Source of the DNA: Tannerellaceae bacterium
GTDB lineage: Bacteria; Bacteroidota; Bacteroidia; Bacteroidales; Tannerellaceae
Reading direction: 5' to 3'
NCBI GenBank assembly: GCA_031266215.1
Contig: JAISBL010000024.1
Span: forward strand, 1-53,217
Length of the DNA: 53,217 nucleotides
The first letter of the stretch is position 1, and every line of letters starts with the position of its first letter. This document shows positions 4,618-53,210 of the stretch, piece after piece. The translations under genes were made by a program, and so were the position numbers. Under the pieces are notes generated by a model. The model made no database searches, was not told the DNA's origin, and worked only from the letters and a program-made list of their open reading frames with translations.

Positions 4618-4709
4618 GGCGTCTCCTGATGCGCCGGTGCGGCGTCTCCTGATGCGCCGGTATGGCGCCTCCTGATGCGCCGGTGTGGCGTCTCCTGATA
4701 CGCCTGTAA
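4618..4709. repeat. Array A: four 23-bp tandem units with a dyad core
   Basis: GGCGTCTCCTGATGCGCCGGTGC / GGCGTCTCCTGATGCGCCGGTAT / GGCGCCTCCTGATGCGCCGGTGT / GGCGTCTCCTGATACGCCTGTAA, in register with no indels. Confidence 0.93.
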
Positions 4710-13930: not shown

Positions 13931-14328
13931 AAACCCATCCCACGAGAGATGAAACCCATTACACAAGGGATGAAACCAATCTCATGAGGGATGAAACCAA
14001 TCACACGAGGGATTAAACCTATCACACGTGAGATGAAACCAATCACACTATAAGATAAACCCATCCCTCGAGAGATTGAACCCATCCCACGAGAGATGGA
14101 ACCTATCACACGAGAGATGAAACCTATTACACGAGAGATGAAACCAATCACACGAGAGATGAATCAATCACACGTGAGATGAAACCTATCACACGAGAGA
14201 TGAAACTCATCTCACGAGAGATGAAACCCATCACACGAGAGATGGAACCCATCATATGAGAGATGGGTTTATTTTTGCGAAAAATGGAATTCATTTCACG
14301 TGGGATGGAATTTATCTCACGTGGGATG
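13931..14328. repeat. Array B: sixteen 21-bp tandem units (13931-14265) plus two outlying units (14286-14328)
   Basis: Consensus AAACCNATCACACGAGAGATG with dyad CATCTC-ACGA-GAGATG; all contiguous units are 21 bp except one of 20 bp. Confidence 0.95.
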
Positions 14329-17069: not shown

Positions 17070-20000
17070 ATGATCAATTTAGTTCCTACAACAAAAATAA
17101 TACTATCAGGAGTTCTATTTTTAATCCTCTCTCCAATAGCATCCGCCCAGGTGCTTTTTGATGCGCCGGGGTACGTTCACACAGGCAACGTAACCGCCTG
17201 CTTCACATACATGGGCGAGGTAGACTTTACCTCCGCGTACAGGTTTACGCCCAATACGGTGTATGGTACAGACGACCCCAGCTCTGATTACTACTTAAAC
17301 GGATATTCAATACCTCTGGTTGCCGACCTCAATCATGACGGGTATCCGGAAATTGTAGCTCTTGGGGTAACGGCAAATAATAGCTCCGGACGCTATAACG
17401 GCATCCGGATATTAAACGGGCAAACAGGACAAAGAATAGCCAAATTACCATTTAAGCAGGGCACTGCCGATATAAGCGGTTATTTTGAGTATAATAATTA
17501 TCACCCGTCTCCATCTCCAATAGCGCTTGTCGATTCCGATCGCGACGGTATTATTGAGGTAATCATGGCGTTCCCCAATGGTGGTACCGCCACTTCCAGT
17601 TATCGCAGTACGCTTTCATCTTATGAAATAGTTCCGGACGGTGCAACCTATACGCTTCGGGAAAAATGGCATAGTTCAACTAACTATAATGCCCCGCTCA
17701 CTGCCACTTCCGACTACCATAAACCGATACCGACGGTTGTTGATCTGGATGGCGACGGCATACCCGAAGTGGTGGTATATAATAAAATATATAACGCTGT
17801 GAACGGTCATTTACTGGCAACGCTTGAAACCCTGGGAACCGACGCCTTTATCGGGCGCGATCCTAATATGTATGATGATGATAAATTTGTCGGATTCAAC
17901 TATGTATATGACCTGGATATGGACGGCGTCTACGATGTGGCTGCCGGAGGGAAGGTATACAAAATAACGGCAGGGGCCATAAATAACGGAGACAGGACAT
18001 TTAACTATACTACGCATCCTGTGTCGTCGACACCTGTAGATACGCCGACAGGGGTGGCCGATATTAATGGCGATGGCATACCGGACGTAGTTTGTGTATT
18101 TGTGGAGCGCCGATCAAGTTCTAGCGGAAGGATCATGGTCGTTGTCTGGAACCCGGGGTTCCTGGCTACCGATGGCAATGGGAATATTGTTCCCGGTAAT
18201 TTGCAGCCACAGCTCCTGGCAATGCAGACTTTCGGCATGTCGAGCGGTACGGATGGCAACTTTGGCTCTAATTCATATGTATATATAGGAGACATCGACG
18301 GGAGGGAACAGGTTGTAAACGGTAAGACCTACCGGCTGCCCGAGATAGCGATATTGTCAGGGAAATATCGCTATGCAGCGACTACAGGATCAAACCCGTC
18401 ATCACCATTGGGAATACATCCGAATATCCCCTCCGGCTCTTTCCCGACGAGTGACGCCTCCAGCGGCGGATCCACCAGTGGAAGGGAAGGAGACCTGATA
18501 GGATTTACATGGGATGCCAGCGACGGTCTTAACTACTCCAACCGGCTGAAACTTTCCTTTGTTCTTGAACATGATGACCAGTCAACGGAAACAGGCTTTA
18601 CGATGTTTGATTTTGACAATGACGGCGTGCTGGAAATCTGCTATCGCGACGAACAGTACCTGCGAATTATAAAGCCGGTAAAACCCTTTATAAAACTGGG
18701 GTCTACAACTGCTGCGGACGGTATTGTCTTCAGGGAGGCGGTAAAATCAGGTACAGGGTTTGAATACCCCGTCATAGCGGATATAGACAACGACGCCTCC
18801 GCCGAAATGGTGGTAATGGGGCATCCTACCAGTGATGCCGCTTTCAATGGATTTGTGTATGCCGTAGGCAACGGCACAGGCGGTAAATTCGCTCCCGCCC
18901 TGCCGGTATGGAACCAGTTTATGTACGACCCGTTCAAGATTGACATAGACCTTAAGACTCCCACCGCGGCCGAAGGGCGCCATGCCATCAACCGGCTGGA
19001 CCCCGAATTTACTTTCAGGCGCGAGATTAAGGATGTAAACAACCAGGTGGTCAAGACCATTGAAGCCTTTCAGCCTTTTAACGGCACCCTCATACAGGCG
19101 CCCTATTTCACGGCCGATACGCCGGCTCTGTTCCCGCAGCAAAAGCTCAAGTTCGAGCCGATTGTCTACAAAACGGCGGCATACATCATTGACGCCCAGG
19201 ATGCCGATCCCGCCAAAAGGCCAAGGATCGTGACCGGGCCTCCCTACTATGCAGAAATAACTATCGGCAACTGGGCCGGCTCCCTGTCAATCATACCACG
19301 TAATACACCCATCACAGTGTACCGTAACAACCTCATCTCGCAGGCTACGTATGTAAACAAGTACCCGCTGAGCAGCCCGGATCTGAGGCATGAGACCTCT
19401 CCCGGATCAGGAACTTTTGCCGCTCCTACAAACTCATTCGCCGGCATTCAGCCCGGCGGGGAGATACGTATACGTATACCCATAACTGATGTGAACGACG
19501 TTTACTGGGTCAGGCTGGCCGACGATAGCGGAGGCTCGCCGTGGATATGGCGTTTCGGGCTTGACGACGACCCGCTCGGCACCGAGTCCAACCCCGGGCT
19601 TGGCATAGGCGTCGCCCGCCGGCAATACCGTGACTGCGACTGGGAAGACCAGAGCGTCAGGGTGTCCAAATACCGCACCTTCGACGACGCAGCCACCGTA
19701 CAGGAATACCATCCGGTGAAGATCGATATCCTTGATAACGACTTCCTCCCCGATTACAGCCCGTACGACTTCTACCTCGGCCTCACCCTTTCGGATGCAA
19801 ACATTACCATGCAGCCTAAAGCCGGCTACCTCACATATTCAGGCTCCGGGCATAACGCCGCAGTAGAATACCACCACGACGGCCGTGTGGCGCTGACCGC
19901 CGGCATAGACTCCTTCCAGTATTCCTTCACCTTCAGCAACCCCGAATACAACCCCGCCCAGAATACGACGGTCACCTCCATGGTTTACATCTATGTACTG

Positions 20001-21974
20001 GAAAGCTCGTCGGTCGGGTTCTCAGCCTGCTACGGCAGTAACGTCACCGTCAGCCTGGCCGAAAAACCGGCAGGCGGCATCACCTTCAACTGGTTCGACG
20101 AAGACGGGCACCCGCTGGGCACGGGCCTGTCAAGAACGATAACCATGGGAGACGCAGACTCCGTATACATGATCCATCCGATCGTCAGCACAGGCGCTTA
20201 TACCGTTGTTGACTTCCCCAACGGAGAATTAACCGTAGCCCTGGTCAATTCCTCAGGCTCAACGGCCACCATGAGGTGGACGGGGCTCGTCAACCACGAC
20301 TGGAAGAATCCGGGGAACTGGGTAGAAGTGAAAGGAGGCTACGAGACCCCGGTCGCCTGGGCGCCTACGGGATGCGTAGACGTGATTATACCCTCCGGCG
20401 CCACCAACTATCCGGAGCTGATCGACCCCATGCAATGCCGCAATATTATAATGAAAGACCGGGCGATGCTCAAGAACCCACACGTACTGACGTACTCCAA
20501 CGCATCGGTAGAGCTGAAGCTCACGCCCTGGGAAAAAGACCGCTTCATCATGTGGTCGGCCCCTCTGAAAGATATGTATTCAGGCGATTACCACTTTACG
20601 AAAGCCGACGGAACTCCCAACTGGGGCGACGTATACATGATGTTCTTCCAGATGCCCAACCCCGACGTACAAGGCAGCGCCCCGGTGGCTAATAACCTCA
20701 CCGCGACATTCGGCAACCCCGGTAAAGCCCTGCCCCTTGGCAGCGCCTTCAACTTCCGCCTGGCCGCCACTTCCATAAACCGCGACTCAGTGCTCACCTT
20801 CCCCCGGACGGCTGCGACATACACCTCCGCCAACAACACTATGTTTACCGGTCTCACGAGGTTAAACGGCCACCGCTTCATCACCGACGGAATAACACTG
20901 AGCGGTAACCAGTTCAATATACCGGTGCCAGGTAATATGGGCGTACCGAACAGGTTCCTCCAGATAGTCAACCCGTACATGGCCTACCTCGACGCCGGCG
21001 CCTTCCTTAACGGCAACAGCGCGATACTCGAAGCCAGCGGATACATAGAATGGGACGGCAGTGTCAGTTCAGGCCTCATCGGCCACCGTATGAACCTCTC
21101 GCCCGACGGCATGAGGTACGAATGGATCAGCAGCGCACCTGCCGGGACGAGCAGCGGCATGATCCCGCCCCTGAAATCATTCTTTGTAATGAAGAAAGCG
21201 AACGTACCCGATATCCCCCTCAAAATGTCTCCCGCATGGACAACCACCACCGGCGTATCCAACCCCTACACCCTTCGCGCCTCACCCGACGGGACGGAGA
21301 CCAACATCCTGCGCATCAAAGCCACGCAAGGCGATAAAGAAAGCTACGCCATACTCTGCTACAGTCCCCGGGCGCATCCCTACTACGACGGGAGCGAAGA
21401 TGTCTATCAGCTCTTCTACGACGATATCGCCCTCACCGTCTACGCACTCACACCCTGGAAAGACGCCCTGTCAATATATGCCGACGGAGACTTTTCCACC
21501 CGTGACACCGACCTTGGGCTGCGCATACGCGATGCAGGCGAGATAACGCTTGAGTTCTCAGGCATGGCCACCTTCGGGCACAACGTCTGGCTCGTAGACC
21601 GCGTAGCCGGCAAAGAGATAGACCTCCGCCAGCAATCCAGCTACACCTTTGCAGCCGGCAGGGCGCCGGGTAGCGGCGTACTCGAACTGAACGACCGCTT
21701 TGCCATCCGCGCCAGCTACACCGGCGAGGGGATAACCGGCAACCGGGCGATAACCCTGCCCCGGTGGAACGTATCTTCGGCCGACAGGGCCATCGTCATA
21801 CAATCCACGTCGCTCCCCATTGGCAACCTGCATATATACGATGTAACGGGCGCCCTGGTGTACTCCGCCGGCGCACCGTCAGCCTACTTCCGCATACCTC
21901 TGGCGCAGGGCATCTACATCATAAAAGCACAGGTAGGCATAGAGAACAAAGTAGAGAAAGTATTTGTAAAATAA
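17070..21974 (+). CDS. Large FG-GAP/VCBS-repeat surface protein with T9SS type A-like C-terminal tail
   Basis: Signal peptide; repeated DLDGDGIPEVV / DINGDGIPDVV / DFDNDGVLEI; C-terminal GNLHIYDVTGALVYSAG...QGIYIIKAQVGIENKVEKVFVK. Confidence 0.8.
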   Translation: MINLVPTTKIILSGVLFLILSPIASAQVLFDAPGYVHTGNVTACFTYMGEVDFTSAYRFTPNTVYGTDDPSSDYYLNGYSIPLVADLNHDGYPEIVALGVTANNSSGRYNGIRILNGQTGQRIAKLPFKQGTADISGYFEYNNYHPSPSPIALVDSDRDGIIEVIMAFPNGGTATSSYRSTLSSYEIVPDGATYTLREKWHSSTNYNAPLTATSDYHKPIPTVVDLDGDGIPEVVVYNKIYNAVNGHLLATLETLGTDAFIGRDPNMYDDDKFVGFNYVYDLDMDGVYDVAAGGKVYKITAGAINNGDRTFNYTTHPVSSTPVDTPTGVADINGDGIPDVVCVFVERRSSSSGRIMVVVWNPGFLATDGNGNIVPGNLQPQLLAMQTFGMSSGTDGNFGSNSYVYIGDIDGREQVVNGKTYRLPEIAILSGKYRYAATTGSNPSSPLGIHPNIPSGSFPTSDASSGGSTSGREGDLIGFTWDASDGLNYSNRLKLSFVLEHDDQSTETGFTMFDFDNDGVLEICYRDEQYLRIIKPVKPFIKLGSTTAADGIVFREAVKSGTGFEYPVIADIDNDASAEMVVMGHPTSDAAFNGFVYAVGNGTGGKFAPALPVWNQFMYDPFKIDIDLKTPTAAEGRHAINRLDPEFTFRREIKDVNNQVVKTIEAFQPFNGTLIQAPYFTADTPALFPQQKLKFEPIVYKTAAYIIDAQDADPAKRPRIVTGPPYYAEITIGNWAGSLSIIPRNTPITVYRNNLISQATYVNKYPLSSPDLRHETSPGSGTFAAPTNSFAGIQPGGEIRIRIPITDVNDVYWVRLADDSGGSPWIWRFGLDDDPLGTESNPGLGIGVARRQYRDCDWEDQSVRVSKYRTFDDAATVQEYHPVKIDILDNDFLPDYSPYDFYLGLTLSDANITMQPKAGYLTYSGSGHNAAVEYHHDGRVALTAGIDSFQYSFTFSNPEYNPAQNTTVTSMVYIYVLESSSVGFSACYGSNVTVSLAEKPAGGITFNWFDEDGHPLGTGLSRTITMGDADSVYMIHPIVSTGAYTVVDFPNGELTVALVNSSGSTATMRWTGLVNHDWKNPGNWVEVKGGYETPVAWAPTGCVDVIIPSGATNYPELIDPMQCRNIIMKDRAMLKNPHVLTYSNASVELKLTPWEKDRFIMWSAPLKDMYSGDYHFTKADGTPNWGDVYMMFFQMPNPDVQGSAPVANNLTATFGNPGKALPLGSAFNFRLAATSINRDSVLTFPRTAATYTSANNTMFTGLTRLNGHRFITDGITLSGNQFNIPVPGNMGVPNRFLQIVNPYMAYLDAGAFLNGNSAILEASGYIEWDGSVSSGLIGHRMNLSPDGMRYEWISSAPAGTSSGMIPPLKSFFVMKKANVPDIPLKMSPAWTTTTGVSNPYTLRASPDGTETNILRIKATQGDKESYAILCYSPRAHPYYDGSEDVYQLFYDDIALTVYALTPWKDALSIYADGDFSTRDTDLGLRIRDAGEITLEFSGMATFGHNVWLVDRVAGKEIDLRQQSSYTFAAGRAPGSGVLELNDRFAIRASYTGEGITGNRAITLPRWNVSSADRAIVIQSTSLPIGNLHIYDVTGALVYSAGAPSAYFRIPLAQGIYIIKAQVGIENKVEKVFVK

Positions 21975-22165: not shown

Positions 22166-22319
22166 GGCTATAGCAGGGCAACCTGGTTCCATATGTCGTC
22201 ATTACGTGAGTTTTCGATGTAAGAAACCCAGGTTACAGGGTGCCCTCATAACCCGGTATAAGAAAACACCTTTACCGTATCGCCAATTACTGTGGCGAAT
22301 GCCCATTCGCTTAACACCG

Positions 22320-22848
22320 TTGCCGGCATTGGCGCCACACTGTTGCCGGCATTGGTGCCACACTGTTGCAAGCGCTTGCTACACATCGGCGCAAGCACTT
22401 GCTACACATCGGCGCAAGCGCTTGCTACACACCGGTGCAAGCGCTTGCTACACACTGGTGCAAGCGCTTGCTACACACTGGTGCCAGCACTTGCTACACA
22501 CTGGTGCAAGCGCTTGCTACGCACTGGTGCAAGCACTTGCTACGCACTGGTGCAAGCACTTGCTACACACCGGTGCTAGCATTAGCTCCACACCGGTGCT
22601 AGCATTAGCTCCACATCGGTGCCAGCATTAGCTCCACACCGGTGCTAGCATTAGCTCCACACCGGTGCTAGCATTAGCTCCACATCGGTGCTAGCATTAG
22701 CTCTACATCGGTGCTAGCATTAGCTCCACATCGGTGCTAGCATTAGCTCCACACAGGAGCCAGCATTAGCTCCACACCGGTGCAAGTATTAGCTCCATAC
22801 AGGAGCAAGCGTTTGCTCCATACAAGAGCAAGCGTTTGCTCCACGCCA
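22320..22848. repeat. Array C: twenty-three 23-bp tandem units in perfect register
   Basis: Two main subfamilies, GTGCAAGCGCTTGCTACACACTG and GTGCTAGCATTAGCTCCACACCG, with divergent ends (TTGCCGGCATTGGCGCCACACTG; GAGCAAGCGTTTGCTCCATACAA). The last full unit starts at 22826, as expected from a strict 23-bp period. Confidence 0.97.
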
Positions 22849-22871: not shown

Positions 22872-22927
22872 CGCCAGGCGTTTGACACACGGTGTAACAA
22901 CAGAAAGTGTCTGTGGCGCCTTTTTTT
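22872..22927 (+). terminator. Terminator-like structure between array C and the sigma factor
   Basis: CGCCA...GACAC...GTGTC-TG-TGGCG followed by CC and TTTTTTT. Confidence 0.45.
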
Positions 22928-22988
22928 ATGGATGGGGATGCAACTTTATGCCGGGCATTTTCATCATAATCACTGAGAGCGTATTATT

Positions 22989-23564
22989 ATGGAAGAAGAA
23001 GAACGATTGATTTACGGATGCATACGGGGTGAGTCATGGGCTTGTGAAGGAATTTACAAGGCATACGCTCCTGCCATGATGAGCCTCTGTATGCGTTACG
23101 TAAATGACAGGGAGACTGCCCGCGACCTGGTGCAGGAGGGTTTTATAAAGGTGTTCGGCAAGATCGGCGCCTACTCGGCCTCCGGGGCGTTTGGCGGCTG
23201 GGTGAGGCGGATATTCGTGACAACTTCCCTTGAGCATCTCCGCAGGAAGGATACATGGAAGTATGCCGGACCTGTAGACGAGTGCGCCGGGCTGATGGAG
23301 AGCGTGGAGACTGATGTGATGGACCGGTTATCGGCAGACGACCTGCTGGACTGTATCGCACAGTTGCCTGCCGGATACCGGACGGTGTTCAACATGTATG
23401 CGATCGAAGGGTATTCGCATAAGGAGATAGCCGCGTCGCTGGGCATAAGTGAGATCACTTCGCGAACCCAGTTTATTCGCGCAAGGAATGTGTTGCAAAA
23501 GTGTGTACAATCTTTAATAGAGAATGAAAATGCCGGAAAAGAAAGAGCCAAAGGAATCTTCTGA
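22989..23564 (+). CDS. ECF RNA polymerase sigma-70 factor
   Basis: Sigma region 2 (YAPAMMSLCMRYVNDRETARDLVQEGFIKVF) and region 4 (AQLPAGYRTVFNMYAIEGYSHKEIAASLGISEITSRTQFIRARNVLQK). Confidence 0.92.
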   Translation: MEEEERLIYGCIRGESWACEGIYKAYAPAMMSLCMRYVNDRETARDLVQEGFIKVFGKIGAYSASGAFGGWVRRIFVTTSLEHLRRKDTWKYAGPVDECAGLMESVETDVMDRLSADDLLDCIAQLPAGYRTVFNMYAIEGYSHKEIAASLGISEITSRTQFIRARNVLQKCVQSLIENENAGKERAKGIF

Positions 23565-52680: not shown

Positions 52681-52793
52681 TAGAAGGTGCTTCTTAAGCG
52701 CTTAAGAAGGTGCTTCACTAACGCTTATGAAGGTCCTTCATAGGGGCTTAAGAAGGAGCTTCATAGGGCCTTAAGAAGCACCTTCTAAAAACG
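52681..52793. repeat. Array D: ~5 tandem 23-bp units bounded by a perfect 21-bp inverted repeat
   Basis: TAGAAGGTGCTTCTTAAGCGCTT / AAGAAGGTGCTTCACTAACGCTT / ATGAAGGTCCTTCATAGGGGCTT / AAGAAGGAGCTTCATAGGGCCTT / AAGAAGCACCTTCTAAAAACG. TTTTAGAAGGTGCTTCTTAAG (52678-52698) is the exact reverse complement of 52770-52790. Confidence 0.9.
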
Positions 52794-53006: not shown

Positions 53007-53210
53007 TCCATACAGTAGTGTGTGGAACTATCCACACAGGGCGTGTGGGGTGTCCACACAGGGCGTGTGGGGTGTCCACACAGGGCGTGTGGAGTGTCCA
53101 CACAGGGCGTGTGGGCTCTCCACACAGGGCGTGTGGGGTGTCCACACAGGGCGTGTGGGCTCTCCACACAGGGCGTGTGGAGAGTTTATAAAGTAGTGTA
53201 TAAGGAATTC
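53007..53210. repeat. Array E: tandem units of 22 bp (seven near-identical) plus divergent flanking units, may continue past the window
   Basis: Seven TCCACACAGGGCGTGTGGggtg-type units at 53031-53184. Divergent units TCCATACAGTAGTGTGTGGAACTA (53007) and TTTATAAAGTAGTGTATAAGGA (53185). Confidence 0.93.

Follow-up and report, generated by a model that had tools for sequence, protein, structure and literature searches.

REP and BIME elements are palindromes mobilised by RAYT (Y1) transposases and occur as single or paired units of 20-40 bp. The BrickBuilt elements, described in Porphyromonas gingivalis and P. gulae, consist of 23-bp tandem units without spacers, present in P. gingivalis in 19 intergenic copies per genome with 1 to more than 20 units each; they are predicted to form long stem-loops and carry a leader and a tail with terminal inverted repeats (PMC4596501). 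As cited in the same source, P. gingivalis also contains direct repeats of 22, 23 and 41 bp, including MITE464/PgRS.

Here we analyze a tandem array, named array C, in the window, i.e. the whole stretch of 53,217 nucleotides of Tannerellaceae DNA that was studied. Unit alignment of the window resolves 22311-22839 into 23 tandem 23-bp units free of indels, and TRF calls the array at 22314-22844 with a period of 23, 23.1 copies and 0% indels. The sequence-only reading had described the same 23 indel-free units in a register rotated by 9 nt (22320-22848), and both analyses bear this description out; a repeat array of this size far exceeds what chance would give. Array C is situated in a gap of 1,014 bp between genes for an FG-GAP-repeat protein and an ECF-type sigma factor and overlaps no predicted gene. 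The features are as follows:

17070-21974, + strand: upstream neighbour gene, encoding a 1634-aa FG-GAP-repeat protein
22252-22310, + strand: left flank of array C, a dispersed repeat segment with an 86% match at G000:C85
22311-22839, + strand: array C, made up of 23 tandem 23-bp units with the family consensus TCCACACCGGTGCAAGCGTTTGC
Unit positions 12-23, + strand: 12-nt core GC[A/C/T]AGCRYT[T/G/A]GC
22311-22356, + strand: units 1-2, with C-G at core positions 3/10
22357-22563, + strand: block of units 3-11, with A-T at core 3/10; unit 8 is mismatched (C/T)
22564-22770, + strand: block of units 12-20, with T-A at core 3/10; units 14 and 20 are mismatched (C/A)
22794-22839, + strand: units 22-23, with A-T and an outward-extended stem (GAGCAAGCGTTTGCTC)
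22907-22929, + strand: weak terminator-like stem with a T run after it, located between array C and the sigma-factor gene; not above shuffled expectation
22989-23564, + strand: downstream neighbour gene, encoding an ECF-type sigma factor

Four other arrays with units of 21-23 bp are found in the window, at 4618-4704, 13931-14265, 52682-52778 and 53031-53180, and the 21-bp array at 13931 has near relatives at position 14478 of L074 and position 1717 of L076.

It is clear from the alignment that three base-pair states alternate at core 3/10, as the sequence-only reading had stated, and that they are arranged in spatial blocks. The unit lists had to be corrected: the core GCAAGCGCTTGC belongs to units 3, 5, 6, 7 and 9, while unit 4 reads GCAAGCACTTGC; GCTAGCATTAGC is the core of units 12, 13 and 15-19, while unit 14 has the mismatched core GCCAGCATTAGC; and units 1-2 have GCCGGCATTGG. 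Mismatches at core 3/10, which had gone unmentioned, affect four of the 23 units, namely unit 8 (C/T), units 14 and 20 (C/A) and unit 21 (A/A). The stem extension GAGCAA-GCGT-TTGCTC is limited to units 22-23, and the palindrome formed at unit junctions, CACCGGTG, is present in exactly 6 copies.

The host assembly (G000) is a metagenome-assembled genome of 2.70 Mb in 134 contigs, approximately 87% complete, and was searched at the DNA level with the array C unit. At least 13 arrays of the 23-bp family were found: array C, eleven arrays of 11 to 28 units each (L009-L019), and a 4-unit array at a contig end (L020); two further loci (L021 and L022) contain one or two family units each. The species is represented by one short-contig assembly, in which several of the sister arrays are located at contig ends, and the assembly process may have distorted the unit counts. 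The 13 arrays share one framework and provide 236 usable units, 150 of them distinct. Despite a difference of about 26% between arrays there is not a single indel among these 236 units, which hints at a constraint on the pitch. All 13 arrays are intergenic with respect to the predicted genes, and in 9 of the 13 places the closest predicted gene to the left points toward the array. The flanking genes include an AraC-type regulator, parts of TonB receptors, a fucosidase, an AMP-binding enzyme, CobS and an acyltransferase; no common functional theme was seen among the genes flanking the 13 arrays, and no specific function is indicated for the genes near array C. The host genome also carries many other arrays of 21-23 bp. 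Array C is not a singular structured locus but belongs to a minisatellite family that is spread through the genome. A viral or plasmid origin of the family was rejected, the pattern being absent from viral contigs and giving no match in plasmids, and so was a reading of the repeats as promoter motifs, where the Bacteroidota motif TANNTTTG matched once in 3.6 kb, as chance gives.

The 236 units allow the proposed compensatory changes to be quantified. The core 3/10 pair (unit columns 14/21) is Watson-Crick in 79% of them, against 37% expected from column composition, and no other column pair within the unit has mutual information as high. Because the units are related, column 21 was shuffled 2,000 times under each of three schemes, which kept it within the array, within unit classes of the array, or within such classes and the same state of columns 10-11. 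These schemes gave 130, 153 and 168 expected paired units, respectively, compared with 187 observed, a number reached by none of the 2,000 shuffles in any scheme (p<0.0005 within arrays). Twenty unit backgrounds carry several states at core 3/10, in many cases along with a mismatched intermediate (A/A, for example), and nine of these otherwise identical backgrounds carry at least two Watson-Crick states, from which we conclude that the compensatory change at 3/10 is real and arose or moved more than once.

Core 3/10 is the sole clearly covarying pair of the unit. In the family units pairs 16/19 and 17/18 show no covariation, and pair 15/20 has only a slight excess (221 against 218). The outward extension of the stem, correctly noted for the last units, does not extend to covariation of a clear kind, pairs 11/24 and 10/25 being paired at 0.46 against 0.44 and 0.43 against 0.54 expected. 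Likewise, the junction palindrome CACCGGTG exists as claimed, but its four pairs agree with expectation when pooled, one of them (6/11) having a slight excess within arrays (173 against 169). Arm changes without compensation, which the sequence-only reading had counted as evidence against itself, do occur in part: 50 of the 236 units are mismatched at core 3/10, mostly as A/A and C/A, and in the sister array L011 A/A is found in 10 of 16 units. Mismatch at 3/10 is tolerated, and in L011 the mismatched units have themselves been multiplied.

The proposed stepwise amplification agrees with the similarity between units, where identity is 0.866 at lag 1 and falls steadily to 0.71 at lag 15, so that neighbours are most alike. 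The class order ACC>TAC>TCC is common to separate loci beyond random whole-array flips (p=0.0015), suggesting that arrays were copied as wholes. On balance we lean towards a dispersed, non-coding intergenic minisatellite of 23 bp that grows by slippage or unequal recombination, is copied between loci and has its arms re-matched by template switching. Units would increase in number by unequal recombination or replication slippage, and recombination or conversion would copy preformed arrays from one intergenic site to another. With a short palindrome in every unit, template switching from arm to arm would be likely, and such switching could re-match the arms after a point change and yield the A-T, T-A and C-G states with no selection on RNA. 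The case for amplification and for template switching draws on a single assembly of short contigs for the species.

Template switching has been argued to be capable of creating and maintaining hairpins and of giving multibase compensatory changes (PMC8794818). A genome of the same genus, G018, shares the unit framework (TCCACACAGGCGCACGGGCGTGC), and in its locus L124 cores of the form GAATG..CATTC, mismatched GCACG..CATTC and matched GCACG..CGTGC are adjacent at a constant 23-bp pitch. This blockwise replacement of arms fits the template-switch model of PMC8794818, and template switching between the palindrome arms has probably re-matched the arms here. At 4174-4516 of L124 the arms switch as blocks at the 23-bp pitch, followed by a passage into another hairpin family; some other arrays of G018 have imperfect cores.

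Sampled stretches of related genomes were used for an array census. Arrays of 21 and 23 bp dominate the host, arrays of 40-42 bp dominate G018, and 22-bp arrays are the commonest class in G006, G014 and G028; arrays of this sort are a habit of the group. In G018 (L105-L124) there are about 40 arrays with a 40-42-bp period in 311 kb, which is near the 41-nt period of MITE464/PgRS. Among 85,488 species genomes the unit framework was found in Tannerellaceae bacterium Pc512_bin25 only, in a collection from which records near the host may be excluded. Between genes of G006 and G028 there are clusters in which about four palindromic units repeat at a 22-bp pitch, each locus having a sequence of its own. 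Such 22-bp clusters are located at L096 188-275, L104 219-306 and 11878-11965, L092 7190-7277, L097 3384-3471 and 14173-14260, L128 15723-15810, L139 8761-8848 and L134 4932-4997. It is possible that long arrays grow out of small forms such as these clusters in G006 and G028.

No general excess of covariation was found at the palindrome centres of 46 other arrays of the group; for the 35 of these with a good palindrome, the centre scored above other centres in 15 and below in 13. Variation in stem columns is lower than in the remaining columns (0.040 against 0.089, p=0.019) in 14 further arrays of the genus whose palindrome is clear, and both this lower variation and the lack of indels in the 236 family units count against the minisatellite and template-switch explanation. 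A generalization to the whole genus, in which fixed-pitch arrays (21-23 or approximately 41-42 bp) fill intergenic DNA and have their arms rewritten blockwise by template switching while pitch and dyad are kept, so that palindromes evolve by copying and not by pairwise selection, is offered tentatively, and we regard it as rather doubtful.

The covariation at core 3/10 beyond linkage is also what would be expected if a nucleic-acid structure were selected, with unit hairpins or unit-unit duplexes, as RNA or single-stranded DNA, affecting stability or processing of the upstream-gene transcript. The loop-like centre, where positions 16-19 vary and do not covary, and the orientation toward the array of the left-hand gene in 9 of 13 places point the same way, as does the array RNA, whose predicted stability exceeds that of shuffles for each of the two strands (z -10.5 and -8.3). 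These z-scores are not decisive, however, because tandem near-palindromes fold in this manner whatever their role. A lone unit forms a weak hairpin (-1.6 to -6.6 kcal/mol), and in the minimum-energy fold pairing runs between units instead of giving one hairpin per unit; moreover, mismatched units are frequent and amplified in L011, and neither the outer pairs nor the junction palindrome clearly covary. A known RNA family was rejected, since the array gave no Rfam match at gathering score, sub-threshold miRNA models being the only hits. A selected RNA or DNA structure for the array is possible but unproven, and we consider it unlikely. An array of binding sites, where the 12-bp dyads would bind a dimeric DNA-binding protein and the 23-bp pitch approximates two helical turns, could likewise account for the dyad-symmetric cores, the fixed pitch and the lack of indels, and the core resembles LacI-family operators, a resemblance that we take as a lead only. 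But the centre of the core lacks symmetry in most cases (GCAT, GCAC, GCGT), the pitch varies among related genomes (21, 22, 23 and 41-42 bp), and a LacI-family protein (PF00356) was not found in the approximately 87% complete host genome, while the profile control was positive in 9 of 14 genomes. A LacI operator array was rejected on this last ground, and a binding-site array in general is very improbable in our judgment.

The flanks bear on whether the arrays are instead carried by a mobile MITE, similar to BrickBuilt, with a leader and a tail ending in terminal inverted repeats and moved by a transposase. Copies are indeed dispersed in intergenic DNA, and six arrays, including three whose flanks are paralogous, have the left cap CTCAACGTTAAGCATACATTGGAGCA in common; in addition, L019 holds a single-unit copy with a cap-like left side and a tail like that of L014. 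The cap is confined to these six arrays, however, and right sides are mostly unrelated, as are flanks between arrays generally, except for the paralogous ones of L015-L017 (left) and of L009 and L017 (right). In no array does the inverted repeat between the two flanks exceed shuffles, and a reverse-complement right cap is not above shuffles either, save for a marginal score at array C. A MITE with terminal inverted repeats was rejected, no such repeats having been found in the array flanks relative to shuffles, and a mobile MITE carrying the minisatellite seems quite unlikely. At array C, homology of the dispersed segment at 22252-22310, which contains the hairpin GCGAATG-CC-CATTCGC, stops exactly at the start of the array; the left flank of the sister array L009 (2860-3075) belongs to another dispersed repeat, for which the genome gives 49 matches.

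When base changes compensate each other, this is commonly taken as strong evidence for selected RNA structure. The more than 200 related units, in which matched and mismatched states occur together, provide a direct test of whether template switching can yield the compensatory signature, and the chief use of the array family is as a natural test case for whether structural selection is required for compensatory changes.

Compared with known systems, the family shares with REP and BIME elements that short palindromes are dispersed between genes; it differs in its tandem 23-bp arrays, and a RAYT/REP identity was rejected, as no Y1 transposase (PF01797) was found in the approximately 87% complete host genome. 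Matching periods connect it to the direct repeats of P. gingivalis, with 21-23 bp in the host and 40-42 bp in G018, although periods alone are weak evidence. By analogy of anatomy, BrickBuilt of P. gingivalis is the nearest described element, with 23-bp units lacking spacers, multiple intergenic copies, a similar copy number, a range of 1 to more than 20 units, long stem-loops by prediction and membership of the order Bacteroidales, a likeness based on description and not on unit sequence. A leader and a tail do not appear to be generally conserved here, and because terminal inverted repeats were not found we do not class the family as a BrickBuilt MITE, but as a minisatellite of like anatomy. 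A BrickBuilt-like minisatellite is seen here in another lineage of the Bacteroidales, where it comprises many unit families.
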